This document shows, piece by piece, positions 3,614-64,000 of a DNA stretch of 64,000 nt. Positions within the stretch are counted from its first letter, which is position 1; the number at the start of each line of letters is the position of its first letter. The DNA lies in the NCBI RefSeq assembly GCF_042242105.1, contig NC_092027.1:17422221-17486220 (forward strand). Reading direction: 5' to 3'. Both the position numbers and the translations under genes were made by a program. This stretch comes from Pempheris klunzingeri (lineage: Eukaryota; Chordata; Actinopteri; Acropomatiformes; Pempheridae). The notes below the pieces were generated by a model. That model did not search any database, was not told the DNA's origin, and saw only the letters and a list, made by a program, of their open reading frames with translations.

Positions 3614-4957
3614 TTGAGCGAACATGCTACCGCTTGTAGTTTATGTTAGCAGATAAACACTTGATGTCATTCATTCCTCACACTTTCTATGTTGTGCTTT
3701 TGGTTTAGGAAAGGCATAAAAATGACACCATCCTCCAAACTCTTTGGATACCAAGTATTGATCTTACTACAGCTTCACAGACCTGATGTGTCTGGTTACG
3801 GCGGCTGTGATTTCAGGGTGTTAGCGAGAAAAGATTTAGCAGACAAGACACACACACTGCAGACACTAAAGGAACTAAATGTCATAGAATCATCCCAGAC
3901 AGTCTAACGCGTTAAGTGTATCTACCTCGAGTCTCAACAAGCAAACATTTGCCTATATTGTCCAACAAAACTTATTAAAAGAGCACGGGCCTTGATTGAG
4001 ATACCATCGCAAAGTAGATAATTTGCCTCTTTAGTTATTACACACTAATTGCAACACTGGCTGGCTTCCTCTCCCTCACTCTGCTCTCCTCAGCCTGTCG
4101 GCCTGGATTGGCTTCACCTGCTCACTGAGTTGGGTTTAGGGATATTGATCTTAAATATGACTGGAGGGCAGGCGTTTGGGCTGTTCATTGACGTTAGTGG
4201 ACAGAAATTGATCTGATCACCGGACAACAGGCCACGATACTGTAGGAAGTCCTCAAAGAGCAGATCTGAAGTAATCTGATTACATCCAGAAATTCACCAT
4301 CTCCTCTTTTATCGGCATAGAAAGAGAGAGTTAGACAAGCCAAGTCATGTCTGATTGAAGAAGACTCTCAGAGCAGGAGAGGATTCACTGTGGCCCCTCT
4401 CTGCGTCTTACTGGATGTAATATCACACATTTCAAACAGGGTTTCAGCAGGACACCCCTGTCGAGGATGATAACAGAGCTTAATAAGACTTTTCAGCAGT
4501 CTCCACAAGTGCCACCCAACATTGAGAGTTAAGTAATATGATCTAAGAGTTATCAGATCTTGGCTCCCTTGTCACGATGAATTAAATCTCACCGTCTTCT
4601 AAATCTATTTCCTCTCTGATTCAGAGGGTTACTTCATAGTTGTGTGTTAAATTAAAAGATCCCTCATTTAGAAGCTTGTTAGCAAAGTTTTGTAATCAAG
4701 AGTTGACTCTTTCATCTCATTTCTCTAATACAAAAAAAGTGGAATGGATAATTAGAGAAGTTAGTTTTGTGTTAAATCACCTTTTACTTGAACCTAGTGT
4801 TTGATATTCATCTTTAGAGAATCCTTGTTCCTCTTTGTTTCGAGATACCGACACTTGAAGAAAATTCCTGAAACGGGTGACGGAGCGTTGTGAAACCTGA
4901 AGTGACTTTACCGCACCAAGCAAAACTATTCCTACTATTTGTGTGAAAGCAATAGGT

Positions 4958-55041: not shown

Positions 55042-55540
55042 AGCGTTTTTATGTCCTGCTGGCACCTCAGCTGTTGCCGTGTTATCTCATGACTCCAGTT
55101 AGTGCCCTGAGACTCAGACCTGACGGCACAGTTTGTAACTCTGTCTTCCCCTGCTTTCTTCCTTCTGCCTGTCTGCACAAGCTCCACAGGGCACACTGCC
55201 TTTCAGTTACGCTAAATCATGTGATTTCAATATGTGCCAGAATAGCAAGGTCTCACAGGGCAGATTTGTAACACTGGGCAATAATAACACAATGTTCTGT
55301 AAAATACTGACATCTAGTGCTGAGTTTGGGATTTGTCTGCACTCCAGAGGCTTTCAGAAGGAGCTTCAGACCATTAGAGATAAATGCATTCATGGTTTTA
55401 GTTAACTGACAACCACATGGTGCAACTATACAGTATGTGTTAACATATTGTATAATAGAACATAAAGGCAACATACACATTAAAAAGTAGAGATGTCACA
55501 TAGGAGTTTTCTTTAATTCAAGTTTTATTTATTGTATTGC
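54100..55540. other. Intergenic region between sh3bp5 and the retroelement cluster
   Basis: A/T-rich, no coding exon recognised. A CA microsatellite lies at about 55007-55041. Confidence 0.5.
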
Positions 55541-55544
55541 TCAA

Positions 55545-55931
55545 AACAGGAGAAATAAGAACCTTAAAGACCTCCTGGTGCGCACGTCATTTAACTCCGT
55601 CCAGACTACGTCACACAGACGATTTGTCATGTACAAGTACCTTGAAAATATACATTCAGGAATTGGCACTCCCATTTGGCAGTCCTTTTCGTTAGATACT
55701 TGTAATATAGTTTATGCGATCCTGTGCACTGTCTGCAAAAAGATCTATATAGGGGAAACGGGAAATAGTTTACGCACGAGAATGTATCAACACACACATC
55801 ACATAAGGAAACATAATAAATCTACAGCGCTTTATGATCACTTTCAAGAACATAGTCTCAATGATCTGGTCTGTATGGGATTGGAAAGCGACAAAAACAC
55901 AGAGACAGAAGAAAGAACGATACTGGATTAA
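55545..55931 (+). pseudogene. Truncated Penelope-like element: GIY-YIG endonuclease end
   Basis: An open frame of about 129 codons with no start of its own reads NRRNKNLKDLLVRTSFNSV, then GIGTPIWQSFSLDTCNIVYA, then KKIYIGETGNSLRTRMYQH, and ends TEERTILD with TAA at 55929-55931. VYAI/KKIYIGETGNSLRTRM is the GIY-YIG nuclease core (the two aromatic strands and the catalytic Arg) found at the C-terminus of EN+ Penelope-like polyproteins. The reverse-transcriptase part is missing, and homology begins at about 55545, so this is a 5'-truncated copy. It is related to, but clearly diverged from, the element starting at about 59.6 kb: over the shared RRNKNLKD(L/I)LV to GIY-YIG stretch I count roughly half of residues identical. 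Confidence 0.8.
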
Positions 55932-56946
55932 TTTATTACAAACAATAGAACCAACAGGACTGAATGAGATATTTTAACTGATGACTGATGACCTGATTTT
56001 ATTGAACAGACTTTTTACTCTCCCAATTTTTTATCCCCTCTATAGGAAGACTTGGCCAATTTTAACACTCTATGAAATTTTCCCCTTCCTTTTCTCTCCT
56101 TTTTAAAGAATTATGAACTGTCTATATAACCTACATGATTAAATTATCTGCTTGTATCAATTTTGTACTTTAATTATGAATTTTGCATGCTCTATTTAAC
56201 CCCCCCCTGTTTTTTAAATAATTGCATGAATTGTTTTCTCAATCAGGTTTTACCACTTTTTAAGCTGATTACTGTACAATGAATTACCAACACTTATCAG
56301 CGCAGCACTTAATTTTACTCAATTTTCATGTAGCATGACTATAATTCTATACCTTTTTAACCTTTTACTTTTCTAACTTAATTTATTTCACAGAGTGTAT
56401 GGATTTACATTGCTATTGTCTTTTAATTATGATGGGATGGAGTATTTGCCTTTTAATAATCATGTCAAATCATACTACCTGGCGGGCGCATATTAGTTTC
56501 CCCCCCTTTTTTTCCCATCCTCTCTCTCCTTTTTTTCCCCCTTTTTTCTCCCCCTCCCCCCTTCTTTTTTTGCTCTCCCTCACATCAGCACATCACAAGT
56601 TATGTAACAGTCCAGACCCTCTTAAGAGACTTCGACATTGCTAGCTGTGCTACTGTCGTTTGGTGGGACTTGGGGCCACAAAAGCACAGGAACGTTTACA
56701 CGGCCTAATGTCACTATTGCTGACTCTAACCCGTCCCCTCCCAGGGCCCCACCTCCCTCACTGTCCATCTTTCTATGCAGATTCTGCTTGAGCTCGACTA
56801 TGATGTGACATGATGGCTGGATTCTACTTTATTTTCTTAGGCTCAGTTCTTTTTTCCTTTCTCCCTCATATTCCTTTCCCTTCCTTTTATCCATTCTTTC
56901 TATTTGTTAGTTTTGGTCTTCTTATTACATCTATTTTTCTCCCCTG

Positions 56947-57290
56947 ACCCTTACCTTAACCTCCTCTCTTCCTGATTTCATCTGTTCTTTATCCTAACCT
57001 TAACCATCCCCCCCCCCCTTTTTTTCCCTCTTTCTTATCTAATCTATCCCTCTTCCCTAACCCTTACCTTAACCTTCTCCCTCCCTTGTTTCATCTCTGA
57101 TTTAACCCAACCTTAACCTAATTTAACCCCCCCCTTTCTTCCTTTCTTCTTCTTCTTCATCTAATTTATCCCTCTCCCCCAACCCTTACCTTAACTCCTC
57201 TCTTCCTTCCCCCCCTTCCCTCTATTCTAACCTTAATCAGAACCCTCTTTCTTACCCCCCCCTTTTTTTCCAACTTTTAACCAACTTTTC
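56947..57290 (+). repeat. Diverged tandem repeat, period about 113-122 bases
   Basis: Each unit starts ACCCTTACCTTAAC (56947, 57060, 57182) and continues with CTCC/TTCC-rich sequence, ATTTCATCT-like words, CCTTAACC and a C run followed by a T run. About three copies, clearly diverged. Confidence 0.6.
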
Positions 57291-57786
57291 CTAAATTTTT
57301 TCCCCATTATGTGCCATCCAACCAGAGATTTAACTAATCTCACCCAGTCACCATCTGTTGTTGTATATCTGACCGGTTTCTTTTTTCTAAACATAACCAT
57401 TGCACCTGCTCATAATCATAATCACAATTTTCCTTTTCAGACACCTTGCTGGTCCATCAATAAAACTTCTCTTTATGAATTCCCTCCTTTTTGTTTAAAC
57501 TCTATTCACACCCTCTCTCACCTAAAATAATAATTCTTTTGTTTAGGGAGGTACGGTGAAGGAGGAGGAAGGAGGGATACACATTAATTAAGTATCTTTT
57601 GTTACTCCTAAACAAGTTTTTTTATGATTCCTTTCTCTTAATTTTTCCCTCCTCCTTTTTTCCCCCCCTTTCTCCCTTATATTTTGTGGAACTGTATATA
57701 ACCAAACAAGTGAGAGCAAAACATAATTTAACACTGTCCTGTGCCTGTACTTTTTATCATTCCTTTTATTAGGATTGCATAAGAAT

Positions 57787-57816
57787 CCCCAACCCAACCC
57801 AACCCTAACCCTAACC
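57787..57816 (+). repeat. Short telomere-like tract (CCCAA / CCCTAA)
   Basis: Two CCCAA units followed by CCCTAACCCTAACC. The complementary strand carries TTAGGG, the vertebrate telomere unit. Confidence 0.8.
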
Positions 57817-58303
57817 TTTCATCGCTATCCCTAACCTCATCCTATTCTAACCTTAACCACTGTCTCCTCCACTTTCAACCCTCACCTCCATCCTTAATCC
57901 TAAACCACACCCCTATCCCCTAACCCCACCCACCCCTAATTTTAACCACTTTCTCCTTACGTCTAACTATAACCCCACCTAACCCCTCCCCCCACCCCCC
58001 TCCCCTGTGAGACAGGCCCCTCTGAGGCAGCCTGCCCCCCCTTCCCCCTCCCTCTATGTCTGTCTCTCATCCCTGTCTGGCCAGCCCCCCCTCCCCATGT
58101 TTGTCTGTGAACTATTTTCCTTTCTTTTAAATCCAGGCCCCCAGAGGGCAGCCTATGGACAGGGCAGCCCTGTGACCAGTGCACACCTGTACCTGTACCC
58201 TAAGCTCTCCCTCTCCATTACCCTTACCTTAACCACGCTCCTTTAATGCATGCCTAACCCCCTCCTCACTTGCCAAAAAACACTCTCCAGAATAGGCTCC
58301 TAT

Positions 58304-58880
58304 CCACTCCAAATGGCCTCAAATGTGCTCCTAAACACTTTCTGGAAACACCTTTTTCCAAAAAACATGGTCAAATTTTCACTCATCAAAATTTATCCAT
58401 CTTAAGTTCATAACTCGGCCTAGGAATGTCCCACAGACACCATTCAATTATGCCTAGAATCCCTCTAACTCAAGCTACATGACTCTATAATTTCAGCTCC
58501 ATAGCACCTAATACTGCTGAGCTACTGGTCACTCACTTTTCAAAACACTCAGGTTAGAGTAGGCACCAATCCACTCCAAATGGCCTAAAACATGCTCCTG
58601 AACACTTTCTGGACACTCTTTTTTACAAAAAACACTTTTCACTTAAAATCAATCCATCTTAAGTTCATAACTTTGGCTAGGAATGTCACACAGACACCAT
58701 TCAAGTATGCCTAGACTCACCCTAACCCAAGCTACTTGACTCTCTAATTTCAGCTCCATAGTGCCAACTACTGGTCACTCACTTTTCCAAAGGTAGTGTT
58801 TATTTACTTTTCCAGGCCTCCAATCAACTCCAAATGGCCTGAAACACGCTCCTAAACACTTTCTGGGGGAACTTTTTTCA
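58304..58880 (+). repeat. Satellite-like tandem repeat, period about 254-267 bases
   Basis: Two full units and the start of a third. Equivalent points fall at 58304, 58571 and 58825 (CCACTCCAAATGGCC and variants), each followed by TGCTCCTAAACACTTTCTGG, and in the first two units by CCATCTTAAGTTCATAACT and CAGACACCATTCAA. Units differ by scattered substitutions and small indels. No coding content. Confidence 0.8.
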
Positions 58881-59230
58881 AAAAAAAAAATTTTTACCTC
58901 ACTCAACTCTATGGGGAATTTTCAAACGCCTATAACTTTACAACCTGCAAACCACTTCCGCCTGCCATAATTCGGCCCTTCTGAACACGCCAGGCTTGGT
59001 CCCGTCTCTCTACGACCTTCCGTTCCGGAGATACAACAAAAATAACGTTTTTTTCGCTACTTACGCCCACTTCCCGACGTCACAGCGACTCGGGGGTCCC
59101 ACCCATTGAAAGACAGCCAATGAAAATGGGGGGGGTAGGAAAAACTTCAACTCTCTAGCTCAAAAGGTTCTTCAGTTATCACCCAACAAGAGGACCATCA
59201 AATTGATGATCGTGGTTATTACCCCCCTTA

Positions 59231-59256
59231 CCTAACCCTAACCCTAACCCTAACCC
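59231..59256 (+). repeat. Interstitial telomere-like array (CCCTAA)4
   Basis: Four consecutive units, CCTAACCCTAACCCTAACC and on, equal to TTAGGG on the minus strand. It lies about 480 bases upstream of the hammerhead-like motif that marks the start region of the second element. The G-rich strand can form a quadruplex. Confidence 0.9.
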
Positions 59257-59706
59257 AATCCCCCCTCTATGCCTAACCTCAACCCCTCCTAACCCCTCCC
59301 CCCACCCCCCACCCCTGTGAAGACCCAGAACCTAACCTCAGCCCGTGCCCAGGGCGGCCTCCAGCTGCTCCCCTCCTGCCATCCCCCCGGGCACGACTTC
59401 CTTCCTGGGGGAGAGGACTGAGAGAGGCACAAGCACCAGCACCACTATAAATTCCCATCCATATATAAAAAAATATATAAACATAAGTGAAAACTTATGT
59501 TCCATAAAATATATACACACCTGAGAGGCCATAGGAACTCCGCACCAATAGGGGGCGGAAGGGGGCACAGGCTGTGGTATCCTACAAAGGAAATAACAAC
59601 AAAATGGGAGGGGAAAAAAGGACCAATGGGAAAGCTGACCTATCAGAAGCATTCCCTCCAATTTTAAAATTTAAACCCCCAGTGGTGCTGGGGCTCTCCC
59701 TTGTGT

Positions 59707-59748
59707 GTTTTCTCTGAAGAAGCCGATGTAGGCGAAACGTCAGAAAAC
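59707..59748 (+). ncRNA. Hammerhead-ribozyme-like motif (PLE pseudo-LTR)
   Basis: Stem I is perfect: GTTTTCT (59707-59713) pairs with AGAAAAC (59742-59748). Between them come CTGAAGA (fits the core CUGANGA, 59714-59720), one extra A, a stem II of GCC/GGC around a GATGTA loop, GAAA (59734-59737), CG, and TC as the end of a GUC cleavage triplet (59739-59741). Stem III is just the palindrome ACGT, with no loop, so cleavage would need two copies pairing, as proposed for other PLE hammerheads with minimal stem III. The extra A before stem II is a deviation that could weaken activity. Confidence 0.6.
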
Positions 59749-59970
59749 CTTTTTTATCTTTCTTTTAAATTGTTTTTACACGGTTTTTAATGGTTCTTTT
59801 ATGAGTGAGTTTTTCTATGGAATGGCCTAGCTTCCTCTTTTATTGTTCTTATGTGGCCCTTTAACGGCCAAGGAATAAGACTTACTGAGGACTAAGATCC
59901 AGGACTGCTTCATTCCTCCCCTCCAACTGGATCCTCCCAATAAAACTTCTACAAACAACAAGAACTCCAG

Positions 59971-60279
59971 GTAAGGCATCTACCAAATCAGGATCAAAGA
60001 GTGTGTACACATGAAGATCAACTTACCTGGATGATTAGGGGATCCAACCACCTACTCCGGGAGGACACAAGCCTGGAAGGAGCCTCTGGTGGGTCCACTA
60101 GGCCACAAAATAACCCATCTTACTCCACCATAACCGATCCTTAAGCACTGTGTTTTTTATTGTCTTTTATTTTTATATTTTGGTTTTATGGTTTGTCTTA
60201 TCCTGTATTTTTAATTGTGTTTTATTACCCCTGTGTGTCTCTTTTATCTCTCCTCTTCCCCCCTTCCCTTCATCCCCAG
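59971..60279 (+). other. Candidate spliceosomal intron in the element's 5' UTR
   Basis: CAG|GTAAGG donor at 59970/59971 and a long pyrimidine tract (TCTCTCCTCTTCCCCCCTTC) leading to CCCCAG at 60274-60279. The intron would be 309 bases and removes A/T-rich, frame-broken sequence ahead of the ATG at 60391. A second possible acceptor (TTTTTTAACAG) ends at about 60303. Introns are documented in PLEs; here the site is a sequence match only. Confidence 0.4.
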
Positions 60280-60390
60280 GTCTTTTATTTGGTTTTTTAA
60301 CAGGGGACCTGCTCCCGGCCGTCCAGCCACTCCTGCACAGAACCTTTTTTATTGCCTTTTACCGGCTTTTAACAGCCAGAAAACGTCACA

Positions 60391-61713
60391 ATGGCTATCC
60401 CACTACAAAATAGATACGGGATACTAACCCAACTCTCAAACAGGGGTGAGTCCAGGAGTAAAATCAACCATCGACCACCTCTGTCCCCCAGTGACCTGGC
60501 CACGTGCAAGGGTTATTTCAAATTACTACGAGCGGTTCATCATGCTGAGATTTTGAATAATGTACTCAGCACAGGTTCCCTACCGGTGGGCATGCAGAGG
60601 CAGGCGGACAGACTCGCGGCCTTCATCAAGCCTTCATCACCCTCGGAAGATACCCTGGCAAAGGTCAAGCAGAATACCAACCAGTGGTTATCTAACAACC
60701 TCCATATCCTCACCACTCACTACGACACTATTATAGCCACAGCACTCAGTAAATCACTCCCATTTCACCCAGAAGCCTTTAATAAAGCTATAACCTGGGG
60801 CAAAAACCGGTACAAAAGAAAACTCACCCTCACCTCCATCAGCACTCTCAGGTCTCTGTTATCACCACCACAGGGCCCCCCACCCACTCACACTCCCCCC
60901 ACGGTTCATACCCCAACAGAGGCCCCGGTGTTGCCCCGGAACAACCTACCGACTGGGCAGTTATCATATGCACAGGCCCTGAGGAAACCCTCACCTACTA
61001 GGACCACCATACAGAACCACCCAATAGGCAAACCTCTCCCCCATACTCACTCACCACTAGTGAACCCAAGCCGGTCGCCTGGTCCTCGAAGCCCCGTAAA
61101 CTCTCCTGGACCAGAAAATGGCACCGGCTTTCCCTCCCCCAGGCCACAGCGTACCTCCAGGAGGTCGCTCTTGGTCCAAGCCTCGGTGGAAATAGTGAGA
61201 CCCAGGGACCTCCCGTTAGCCCTGCGGGGGAACACAACATCAGCCGGGGTTAGCTCAGCTACTAGTTTGGAGACTGGCCCGGCTACCGACGCAGCGATCG
61301 GAAACAAAATGTCCGCCGATCCAGTAATTGGGACCGAGCTAACACCTGGACCGATTGCTGCCTCGGTACCGGCCCTAGCAATTAGCCCACCGGCTAGCAT
61401 CCACCTCCCCCCACACCAGATAATCCACTTACCTCAAACCCTCACCTGTAATAGCACTCCAATAAACAAGAACAACAATAATAGAACAGTACTTACTTCA
61501 TTCTCCAACGTTATTGCCATGGATAACGACTCCATCTTGCCTGCCTCTCTTCCAGACCCCGCACCAGAGGGACCCCGGCCAGCAGTGGAGCGGTCACCCG
61601 AAATAGCCATAATGACGTCGGGAGGACACTCAAAAATGATGATGGGCTATACAAAAGACAATAACTCGTGTCTGAATAAAACCCAATCTGAGTCCTCCTC
61701 GAACACAAGCTAA
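60391..61713 (+). CDS. PLE ORF1: helical start, proline-rich, unknown function
   Basis: A 440-codon frame from ATG (MAIPLQNRYGILTQLSNRGE) to TAA. Residues about 35-150 look mostly helical and charged (CKGYFKLLRAVHHAEILNNV, then DRLAAFIKPSSP, VKQNTNQWLSNNLHILTTH and TWGKNRYKRKL). Residues about 160-270 are rich in Pro, Thr and Ser. The rest is low-complexity with no domain I recognise. No zinc knuckle or RNA-binding motif is visible. It lies 15 bases upstream of, and in the same reading frame as, the hydrolase ORF, so it may be the N-terminal part of a longer ORF1 cut by one stop, or a separate protein. A gag-like RNA-binding role is only a guess. Confidence 0.65.
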   Translation: MAIPLQNRYGILTQLSNRGESRSKINHRPPLSPSDLATCKGYFKLLRAVHHAEILNNVLSTGSLPVGMQRQADRLAAFIKPSSPSEDTLAKVKQNTNQWLSNNLHILTTHYDTIIATALSKSLPFHPEAFNKAITWGKNRYKRKLTLTSISTLRSLLSPPQGPPPTHTPPTVHTPTEAPVLPRNNLPTGQLSYAQALRKPSPTRTTIQNHPIGKPLPHTHSPLVNPSRSPGPRSPVNSPGPENGTGFPSPRPQRTSRRSLLVQASVEIVRPRDLPLALRGNTTSAGVSSATSLETGPATDAAIGNKMSADPVIGTELTPGPIAASVPALAISPPASIHLPPHQIIHLPQTLTCNSTPINKNNNNRTVLTSFSNVIAMDNDSILPASLPDPAPEGPRPAVERSPEIAIMTSGGHSKMMMGYTKDNNSCLNKTQSESSSNTS

Positions 61714-61728
61714 ATTGGCTCACCGGAA

Positions 61729-62289
61729 ATGACCGCTCCACCTGCGCACCGGGTACCGTTCATACACCCACGCACGCATAGGAAAATCCAAGAATGGTCC
61801 CTCATGGTGCACAAACCAATACTTATTCTGGGAGATTCTAATCTGGCACGAATACCTTCTTTTAAAGACGAGGAGGTCCAAATCGACAGCTTTCCAGGGG
61901 CCACGTTCTACCACCTGAATGGGGTCCTGGAAAAGCTCGGTCCAAATCCTGACGTCCGAAAGTTGGTCATTTCAGCAGGCCTTAATAATTGCCTGCAAAA
62001 ACAGCAGGAATCAACCACCTGGAAGCAGTTACTACAACTGCTGAGGACGGCTGCGAGCAGGTTCCCTAATGCATGCGTGTATGTCCCTGTCATTAACTTC
62101 TCCCCCAGGCTGGATGTGCAGCAGCGGACCCTCCTGGAGGCTCTTAATGAGAATATCAGCAGGAAATGCAAATTCTTACCTGAAATTAACCCCCTCATTT
62201 TCAGAACGCAGCCACACGACCCGGTCCACTGGACACCGGGCACAGCAACCAAAATCCTGAAAAGGTGGCTGGCGGATTTAAACATGTGA
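61729..62289 (+). CDS. PLE SGNH/GDSL-hydrolase-like ORF
   Basis: A 186-aa frame, ATG to TGA. SGNH family blocks are all visible: block I PILILGDSNL with nucleophile Ser37; block II SFPGATF with Gly57; block III as SAGLNN (Gly84, Asn86/87; the usual form is GxND); and the C-terminal DPVHW with Asp164 and His167. The predicted chemistry is lipase/esterase-type hydrolysis; the substrate is unknown. Esterase domains of this fold are known in ORF1 of CR1-like LINEs, and I do not recall one described in PLEs. It follows ORF1 in the same frame, and its last codons contain the slippery heptamer that would allow a -1 shift into the RT. Confidence 0.8.
   Translation: MTAPPAHRVPFIHPRTHRKIQEWSLMVHKPILILGDSNLARIPSFKDEEVQIDSFPGATFYHLNGVLEKLGPNPDVRKLVISAGLNNCLQKQQESTTWKQLLQLLRTAASRFPNACVYVPVINFSPRLDVQQRTLLEALNENISRKCKFLPEINPLIFRTQPHDPVHWTPGTATKILKRWLADLNM
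62277..62283 (+). promoter_or_regulatory. Candidate -1 ribosomal frameshift site U_UUA_AAC
   Basis: In the hydrolase frame the codons read GAT TTA AAC ATG TGA, so the heptamer T TTA AAC is in the exact X_XXY_YYZ phase and ends 3 bases before the stop codon (62287-62289). A slip of -1 enters the RT frame, which is open from 62184 through the whole RT start. No clear stem-loop or pseudoknot is evident by eye downstream. Confidence 0.6.
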
Positions 62290-64000
62290 GGGGGGTTAAC
62301 TGTATTAGGCTAGATTCAGTTTCAGATTCCATTCAATTACTCATCCACAAGGACCTAGATAGTTTCAGCCACTATAGACCCAGACCACCCACCCAGTATA
62401 ACCTTTCTCCGGCACAATTACAGGCAATTAAATCACTTAGCAACAATCAGGATATAGTCATCAAATCGGCCGATAAAGGATCACAAATAGTTATAATGGA
62501 CAAATATCAATATCTTTATGAAGCACACAGACAATTAAACAATAACAAACATTACATCCCATTAACTCAGAAACTTATTCATAACATTTTATTCAGATTA
62601 CATAACAATAAATTTATAACAACAAAACAACTACATTATCTCTCAGGCCCGGACATCCCCCGAGCCAGAGCATTCTACCTGTTACCCAAGATCCATAAGC
62701 CTCCTGTGAGTTGGACGATCCCCTCCGAGGTCCCGTGCGGCAGACCCGTAGTGAGCGATTGTGGCTCAGTCGTGTCGAGTAGCAGAATACATCGACTTCT
62801 ACCTCAATCCACTTTCTCAAAAACATAACAGTTACATTCAGGATACATATGACTTCGTTAATAAACTCAAAGGAATCCAGGTACCACATCATGCATTTTT
62901 ATTCTCAATAGACATCAATTCCCTCTACACAAACATCGACACGACCCTGGGCCTCCAAGCCATATGGGAAATTTTTAATAAATTCCCTGACCCTAAACGC
63001 CCGGATGGGGATATTCTGGAGCTGTTGGAGCTGAGCCTCACCAGGAACGATTTCCAGTTCAACAATAAACACTACCTACAAATACACGGGACGGCCATGG
63101 GCAAAAAATTCTCCCCGGCCTATGCCAACCTCTACATGTGCCTCTGGGAAGCTACAGCCTTCACCAAATGCATACATTTACCACTCACATATTACAGATA
63201 CCTTGACGATATATTTGGGATCTGGGGGGGCTCCAAGACAGAGTTCGAGGGGTTCCTCCAGATCCTGAACACACACCACCCATCCATCACCACTACTCAC
63301 AATACACACACCGAAAAAATAGAATTTCTGGACACACAGGTTTTTTTCACTCCACACAACGAAACACACAATAAACTGGCTACTAGAATACACTTTAAGG
63401 ATACAGACAGACACGCACTATTACATAAATCCAGTTTTCACCCCAAACACACTTACAGAGGACTCATCAAATCTCAACTCATCCGTTTCCATAGAATCTG
63501 TAGCTTCCCAGAGGACGTGGAGGTGGCAACATCCACACTATTTACAGCGCTCAGGCCCCAGGGATACTCCAAACGATTCCTGAGGACCATAAAAGGGGAG
63601 GTCAGGCAAATATTTCAAGGGGAGGGACAATATATCAGGGTACCGGATCACAAAACCATTATACCATTCGTAGCCACTTTTTCACAGGACCTGGTGAGGC
63701 TCAGCTCCAAAATAAAGTCCCACTTCCGTGAGGCCCAGGCGGATAATGGGGACCTGGAGAGATACAAAATAATCTCAGCCTTCAGGAGAAATAAAAATCT
63801 AAAGGATATCCTGGTGCACTCCAGCCTAACTAGGGGGAGTGAACGGTTGCAGGCCCATCACGCATACCTTTCAAAGCCCAAATTTGTTTTTAATAATAGA
63901 ACAGGGACGGGATCCCCGGTATGGCAAATCATGGACCTAAACACATCCAACCTGGTCTATGGAATAAAGTGCAAGAAATGCAATATCATTTATGTGGGGG
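62277..64000 (+). CDS. Penelope-like reverse transcriptase plus start of GIY-YIG nuclease (partial, one frameshift)
   Basis: Copies element RNA by target-primed reverse transcription; the C-terminal nuclease cuts the target. The first part reads in the -1 frame: IVIKSADKGSQIVIMDKYQY and FYLLPKIHKPPVSW, then CGRPVVSDCGS. From about 62770 the frame moves by a net two missing bases and then stays open to the window end: VAEYIDFYLNPLSQKH, FSIDINSLYTNID, GTAMGKKFSPAYANLYM, YRYLDDIFGIW (the catalytic YLDD, 63199-63210), HPKHTYRGLIKSQLIRFHRI, RRNKNLKDILV and finally NLVYGIKCKKCNIIYVG. The last is the GIY-YIG start. There is no good ATG before the conserved RT block, which supports translation by frameshift from the hydrolase ORF. 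Confidence 0.85.

Follow-up and report, generated by a model that had tools for sequence, protein, structure and literature searches.

SGNH-fold ORF1 ends in Penelope-like retroelements that gather at the chromosome ends of a fish genome

Why would a retroelement carry a hydrolase-like domain ahead of its reverse transcriptase (RT), and what might such a protein do? The question is raised by a stretch of 64,000 nucleotides from the fish Pempheris klunzingeri (contig NC_092027.1, positions 17,422,221 to 17,486,220, hereafter the window), which ends in a damaged copy of a Penelope-like retroelement (PLE) whose first open reading frame (ORF), ORF1, terminates in an SGNH-fold domain. A first-pass annotation had described this copy as an ORF1, a separate 186-aa SGNH-hydrolase frame and an RT, and had proposed that the enzyme served a step shared with CR1-like long interspersed nuclear elements (LINEs). 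The best explanation of the whole, to which we give a probability of about 0.6, is that ORF1-SGNH is the Gag-like protein of telomere-inserting PLEs with a GIY-YIG endonuclease (EN), accompanied by an RT-less partner resembling HeT-A of Drosophila.

All three frames were found in the window, on the + strand, as are the other parts of this element and the repeat that precedes it. The N-terminal part of ORF1 (60373..61710, first ATG at 60391; related ORF1 sequences occur in other lineages) is followed by an in-frame TAA (61711..61713) and then by the SGNH domain (61714..62289), recognised by profile, alignment and fold comparisons. The two parts share one frame, and the stop between them is seen in the window copy only, being absent from the seven other full-length, whole-domain matches of the same family A (L002-L008). 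Six of these seven carry ORF1 sequence in the open frame, two of them (L003 and L007) with the complete ORF1 as a single frame of 638 aa, whereas L006 is interrupted at that point by telomere repeats. Since the frames are in phase and none of the seven relatives has the stop, the SGNH region is the C-terminal domain of ORF1; a separate SGNH ORF was rejected because the relatives read through. The window RT is likewise broken, by a copy-specific frameshift, into part one (62190..62825, in the -1 frame relative to ORF1) and part two (62755..63999), which holds the RT core with YLDD and the beginning of GIY-YIG and runs off the end of the window; at least four other family A copies have an open RT frame of 768 aa. 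A Pfam scan of ORF1 returned no significant match, and NCBIfam gave none for either the SGNH domain or ORF1.

The search of the genome (646 Mb in 439 contigs, 24 of them chromosome-sized) with the window SGNH domain gave 123 matches, 88 of which lie on the 24 large contigs. The core of the annotation, an SGNH-fold domain ahead of a GIY-YIG PLE RT, is supported: the arrangement was met again in two contigs from outside this genome and, within it, in several PLE lineages. Purifying selection is indicated as well, as dN/dS between lineages is well below 1, with dS saturated in 6 of the 14 pairs. That the frame arose by chance insertion or as a chance ORF in this copy could be argued solely from the stop that separates it from ORF1; the number of matches, the several lineages and the low dN/dS between them refute it, and we regard this explanation as practically untenable.

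The outside matches came from one contig that is filed as Enterovibrio (L101) and one filed as Epulopiscium (L102, L103). Both probably represent fish host DNA in assemblies of gut bacteria (an Enterovibrio metagenome-assembled genome and an Epulopiscium single cell), that is, database contamination; judging by the contig titles, we take these to be bacteria of fish guts. The Epulopiscium-filed contig holds a head-to-tail array with a period of 5.44 kb, begins in a stretch of about 40 bp of telomere repeats and encodes an ORF1-SGNH of 616 aa and an RT-GIY-YIG of 765 aa. In the SGNH tree, whose LINE side consists of two sequences only, it clusters with family G (support 0.77). For the five lineages with both domains, RT and SGNH trees were concordant in placing family D with L102 and discordant on L101; families A and the second B copy had dropped out of the RT tree, as the motif used found no frame in them. 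A fourth outside match, L104, was dropped, being a 62-residue match within apparent bacterial genes on the opposite strand.

The novelty suggested for the combination of SGNH domain and PLE did not stand. In its available text, Schneider et al. 2013 (PMC3905857) describe SGNH esterases from the ORF1 of LINEs of the CR1, L2 and RTEX types and also from some RepBase Penelope elements, the esterase occurring 'even in Penelope-like elements'. Athena PLEs with GDSL ORFs are reported in the passages available from Rodriguez et al. 2017 (PMC5408684), so that the combination had been described before. What the literature searched did not show is the vertebrate telomere setting: no recognisable report of telomeric PLE arrays in fish appeared among titles, abstract starts and passages, with few subscription papers covered and no search aimed at frameshifting in PLEs.

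How is RT expressed from such an element? We take the RT to be that of a PLE from its motifs, together with GIY-YIG. The latter (PF01541) scored above cut-off in all three RT proteins of relatives scanned (L033, L102 and L101), and the window retains the start of the domain only. RVT_1 stayed below the Pfam cut-off both in the window (E 8.6e-5, with YLDD visible in the sequence) and in L033 (E 9.2e-6), and a PDB search with RT gave no match. In families A, B and D and in both outside contigs the RT frame lies at -1 to ORF1-SGNH and overlaps its end. At this place the window has a canonical -1 slippery heptamer in the zero frame, T_TTA_AAC (62277..62283), which is the only zero-frame X_XXY_YYZ heptamer in its ORF1-SGNH (60373-62289). 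Across lineages, zero-frame heptamers stand at the same place: T_TTA_AAC in A, A2, G, L102 and E, T_TTT_TTA in D and A_AAT_TTA in B. Canonical heptamers at the SGNH end thus occur in six of eight RT-bearing lineages and are absent from the RT-less C and A3. Folding of the RNA after the heptamer place gave z of -1.8 (A), -4.7 (A2), -2.8 (A4), -1.8 (D), -1.1 (L102), -0.3 (G) and +0.7 (E). It should be added that 7.7 kb following RT in family D (L080) contained no frame of 120 aa or more.

Counts of copies at chromosome ends leave out the 35 of 123 SGNH matches on small contigs. Of the 88 on large ones, 54 are found no further than 100 kb from an end, where 0.77% is expected, and 46 of them no further than 50 kb. 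These 54 comprise 33 on the + strand at left ends, 19 on the - strand at right ends and 2 otherwise, so that 52 have their 5' end towards the telomere; matches occur at 21 of the 48 chromosome ends. As tandem copies are not independent, clusters were counted: 21 of 39 were at ends, 19 of these 21 entirely 5' outward, whereas random placement, repeated 20,000 times, never put more than 5 clusters at ends. The RT gave at least 43 chromosomal matches, at least 17 of them within 100 kb of an end, both being lower bounds since 60 of 208 candidates were scored. The LINE control consisted of 83 matches to the ZfL2-1 esterase, two of which were inspected and judged to be LINEs by the adjoining frame; 7 matches, or 6 of 70 clusters, were within 100 kb of ends.

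The ends themselves were examined in fifteen contig-end stretches (L032, L033, L054-L066). In six of them (CCCTAA)n is joined directly to a 5'-truncated element, each time at a different point; the element belongs to family C in L032, L056, L057, L059 and L064 and to family A in L066. L033 terminates within an element, and the remaining eight stretches match the family C unit throughout. At the right end of C10 (L056) about 220 bp of telomere repeats stand between the 3' region of one unit and the next truncated unit. Within the array at C11, the 3' region of one unit is separated from the 5' region of its neighbour by a degenerate tract resembling telomere repeats, and L101 has a similar tract followed largely by the same bases.

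The same arrays could be read as the work of ordinary EN-driven PLEs which insert widely, survive and multiply in subtelomeres through weak selection and spread between ends by ectopic recombination, the junctions being breaks healed by telomerase. Near-constant units within an end (5331-5332 bp at C11 left, 4920-4921 at C17 left, with C10 left and C5 as exceptions), the 96-99.5% identity of units between ends and the excess of LINE esterase clusters at ends over random placement would suit this account. It is opposed by the shared 5'-outward orientation of all but two end matches, by truncation on the 5' side in six of six junctions, by telomere repeats standing after the 3' region of a unit in L056, and by the fact that family C, with the most end matches (by identity class), has lost GIY-YIG except for a 29-aa remnant. 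We hold it rather unlikely.

Family C is the second element of the explanation that we prefer, insertion at telomeres with an RT-less partner. The family is abundant, its units of 4.9-5.3 kb are tandem and telomeric, with one 6.2-kb spacing at C10, and a whole unit (L032/L053) holds a single long frame, ORF1-SGNH. RT queries against L032 and L053 (E <= 1e-3) found only the 29-aa stretch, which resembles the C-terminus of RT/EN (55%, E 7e-6), and we take the family to have arisen by deletion from a B-like element. Across ten copies (taken from nine ends of chromosomes and from the small contig C30; the truncated L032, L057, L059 and L064 were left out) ORF1 is open over 551 codons in every case, with a pooled pN/pS of 0.129; the SGNH domain, compared over 168 codons in 18 copies, has a pooled pN/pS of 0.10. 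Substitution patterns thus indicate that family C keeps ORF1-SGNH under purifying selection after the loss of RT, and it does so with Thr in place of the catalytic Ser in 18 of 18 copies and Glu in place of the block II Gly in 15. Two A3 copies (L012, L013) also had no RT found in the 1.5 kb after ORF1. As a separate observation, C11 left and C22 left pass from the telomere inward from RT-less units to RT-bearing family D units, followed in C22 by other RT-bearing copies including G and A; the small contig C91 departs from this order.

Low pN/pS in both sets of copies might also mean that the host has co-opted the RT-less family, keeping ORF1-SGNH arrays to help protect or lengthen telomeres. 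The high copy number and the RT-bearing relatives in the same genome fit a selfish element instead, and co-option appears improbable to us. HeT-A, TART and TAHRE of Drosophila are Jockey LINEs that form 5'-outward telomeric arrays and stand in for telomerase, and HeT-A in particular encodes a Gag-like ORF only and borrows its RT. Family C likewise combines 5'-outward telomeric arrays, a Gag-like ORF that is kept and the absence of RT, which would again be borrowed; it may work like HeT-A but does not belong to the same group, being a PLE beside TTAGGG telomeres and not a Jockey LINE. In the passages available from a survey of telomeric retrotransposons that names HeT-A, TART and TAHRE, vertebrates are represented by Tx1 of Anolis and PLEs by Athena (PMC10088271).

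As for the SGNH domain, it has the SGNH (flavodoxin-like) fold, and the closest PDB sequence is the ZfL2-1 esterase 4c1b. The expectation that Ser, Asp and His are kept holds for most lineages: the conserved-block residues Ser, Gly, Asn and Asp-x-x-His are present in the window domain and in the majority, the exceptions being family C (Thr for Ser, mostly with Glu), L029 (Thr), L012 (Asn for Asp) and L013 (Tyr for His). Further comparisons added little: phmmer of the domain against PDB gave no meaningful match; 4c1b was not among the 50 matches listed in either of two PDB fold searches, which excludes nothing; a single-sequence fold prediction was uninformative (predicted local distance difference test 44.9); and neither the window protein nor alignment A1 matched anything in a scan of viral contigs.

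Schneider et al. call the H191/S228 pair (ZfL2-1 numbering) transposon-specific in the passages available (PMC3905857). In the PLE lineages aligned, the H191 position is Ser or Ala, and the S228 position is Pro in the 4c1b profile alignment (one residue beyond the printed alignment) or a neighbouring Val, Ile or Phe in the other alignment, Ser in neither; the two LINE esterases of the same genome that were inspected (L074, L075) have His and Ser there. In the window domain, ATFYH with its His and INFSP with its Ser were considered for this pair and rejected, as the 4c1b profile alignment places the positions elsewhere. Compared with that account, the fish elements are alike in having the SGNH fold C-terminal in ORF1 before RT, with catalytic residues mostly kept, and differ in the replaced H191/S228, the telomeric setting, the -1 frame RT with slippery site and the RT-less family with Thr for Ser.

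The domain might be an active esterase that helps the element at membranes or lipids during its life cycle, the role put forward for LINEs of the CR1 type. In favour of this, most lineages keep Ser, Gly, Asn, Asp and His, and the nearest PDB sequence is an active enzyme; on the whole we lean against it. A lipid step shared with CR1, as the annotation had suggested, is doubtful because in the RT-less telomeric family the domain stays under selection with Thr at the nucleophile position, and because the H191/S228 pair is not kept. The domain would probably act in forming or localising a ribonucleoprotein (RNP) by binding lipid, RNA or protein rather than by ester hydrolysis.

From the architecture, location, orientation, junctions, selection and slippery sites read directly from the assembly, the following course may be suggested. 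ORF1-SGNH, as a Gag-like protein, would carry the element RNA as RNP, and -1 frameshifting in cells would yield ORF1-SGNH-RT as a minor product. RT would prime on the exposed G-rich 3' end of the chromosome; synthesis would often end early, and telomerase would then place TTAGGG repeats on the new end. RT-less elements could be copied with RT supplied in trans, as in Drosophila HeT-A. A bolder version, which we put forward tentatively and at somewhat less than even odds, is a two-part, self-renewing vertebrate telomere system, in which GIY-YIG PLEs producing ORF1-SGNH and frameshifted ORF1-SGNH-RT are joined by an RT-less, Gag-only partner and both insert at telomeres next to telomerase repeats; SGNH would home the RNP to telomeres or pack it, catalysis being dispensable in the partner, and fish would thus have evolved, among PLEs, a counterpart of HeT-A/TART.

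The window copy is preceded by a subtelomeric-type repeat (58277..59231, blastn), whose 3' end adjoins a short (CCCTAA)n tract (59231..59254). Over some 700 bp the repeat is about 80% identical to the right ends of C11, C18 and C22, and it is 77-84% identical to the left end of C8; the same 3' junction recurs elsewhere. The 5' region of the family A element (59309..60372), which a copy at C5:29.44 Mb shares from position 59309 or so onwards, is 96% identical to L082 over 972 bp, with a common start at GAAGACCCAG. Within it a pattern scan found a hammerhead-ribozyme-like motif, CTGAAGA-stem-CGAAACGTC (59714..59741); such core motifs stand upstream in families A, B and C with differing stem II sequences. 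Rfam listed no hammerhead among matches up to E 5, giving for 57000-64000 seven weak matches only, all under gathering scores, and the window motif folds no better than shuffles (z -0.26).

Further observations concern the surroundings. A second, 5'-truncated PLE fragment (RT end and GIY-YIG) lies 5' of the main element at 55536-55980; over 76 aa it is 42% like the window RT. The subtelomeric repeat, about 0.85 kb long, also stands between telomeric arrays in L057, L059, L064 and L066; just 5' of the CCCTAA tract, two of its 3'-end variants could, as judged by eye, form a hairpin with compensatory differences. Its 3' junction pattern has 662 genome matches at up to two mismatches, and among the 100 places listed 74 are within about 25 kb of the ends of C2, C3 or C4 in outward orientation and 10 in an internal cluster on C1, the largest contig. 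There, C1:23259094-23282574 contains long internal (CCCTAA)n together with a decayed element of family D and the subtelomeric 3' junction in ten copies, and looks like a chromosome-fusion point or buried telomere.

A number of observations weigh against insertion at telomeres by Gag-like ORF1-SGNH as the whole explanation. The window copy itself is interstitial, at 17.48 Mb on a 24.3-Mb contig, and 33 of the 88 matches are more than 200 kb from any end. The LINE control, too, exceeds random at ends (at most 5 clusters in 20,000 placements), and 5 of its 7 end matches are also 5' outward; subtelomeres thus seem to collect elements generally, PLEs with SGNH far more. The (CCCTAA)n junctions could be healed breaks, and array units of near-uniform length within most ends or contigs, differing between them from 4920 to 5332 bp (C11, C15, C17, C22 and contigs C30, C91 and C166), point to local recombination or homogenisation besides insertion. 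Within family C, three ORF1 pairs have dN/dS of 0.35-0.44, single pairs reaching 0.44 at most among those printed. The heptamer is missing from the RT-bearing A4 (L015) and L101, and is present in family E (L030), where the following 5.4 kb hold no RT. A stable hairpin is lacking after the heptamer of family B, yet RT-less A3 still has one (z -2.6). Moreover, none of the hammerhead-like folds reaches z -2 in the five motif-holding stretches, a sixth (L066) having been misplaced and without the motif.

As to known telomeric PLEs, available passages describe telomere repeats on the truncated 5' ends of EN-deficient PLEs and depict telomere-confined PLEs of rotifers, fungi, protists and plants as lacking EN (PMC3846280). 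As far as the passages available go, the fish elements are like Athena and Terminon of bdelloid rotifers (PMC5408684, PMC6431247, PMC3846280) in a probable PLE RT, a hammerhead-like motif, chromosome ends and truncated 5' ends with telomere repeats, and some of the rotifer elements carry GDSL ORFs. Athena and Terminon differ in being EN-deficient (GIY-YIG can be a separate ORF) and in having GDSL as an extra ORF and not as the end of ORF1, and the fish units are compact, at about 5-12 kb. Telomeric position and telomere repeats on truncated 5' ends are thus found here as well; RT without endonuclease is not, given GIY-YIG in L033, L102 and L101 and the absence of both RT and EN from family C. 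In fish, GIY-YIG PLEs bounded by telomere-like repeats are described from lake sturgeon as degraded neighbours of an integrated herpesvirus; they are alike in lying beside such repeats, and the passages available mention no ORF1, SGNH, arrays or mechanism (PMC12031113).

If the explanation is true, EN-bearing PLEs with an RT-less, Gag-only partner at vertebrate telomeres would represent an independent parallel to HeT-A of Drosophila, and would provide a vertebrate system for studying the part played at telomeres by the Gag of a retroelement. Because the slippery site recurs, a Gag-Pol logic of these elements can be tested with a reporter. Since the catalytic Ser is lost while selection continues, it can also be tested directly whether SGNH domains of transposons work as enzymes or serve for binding.

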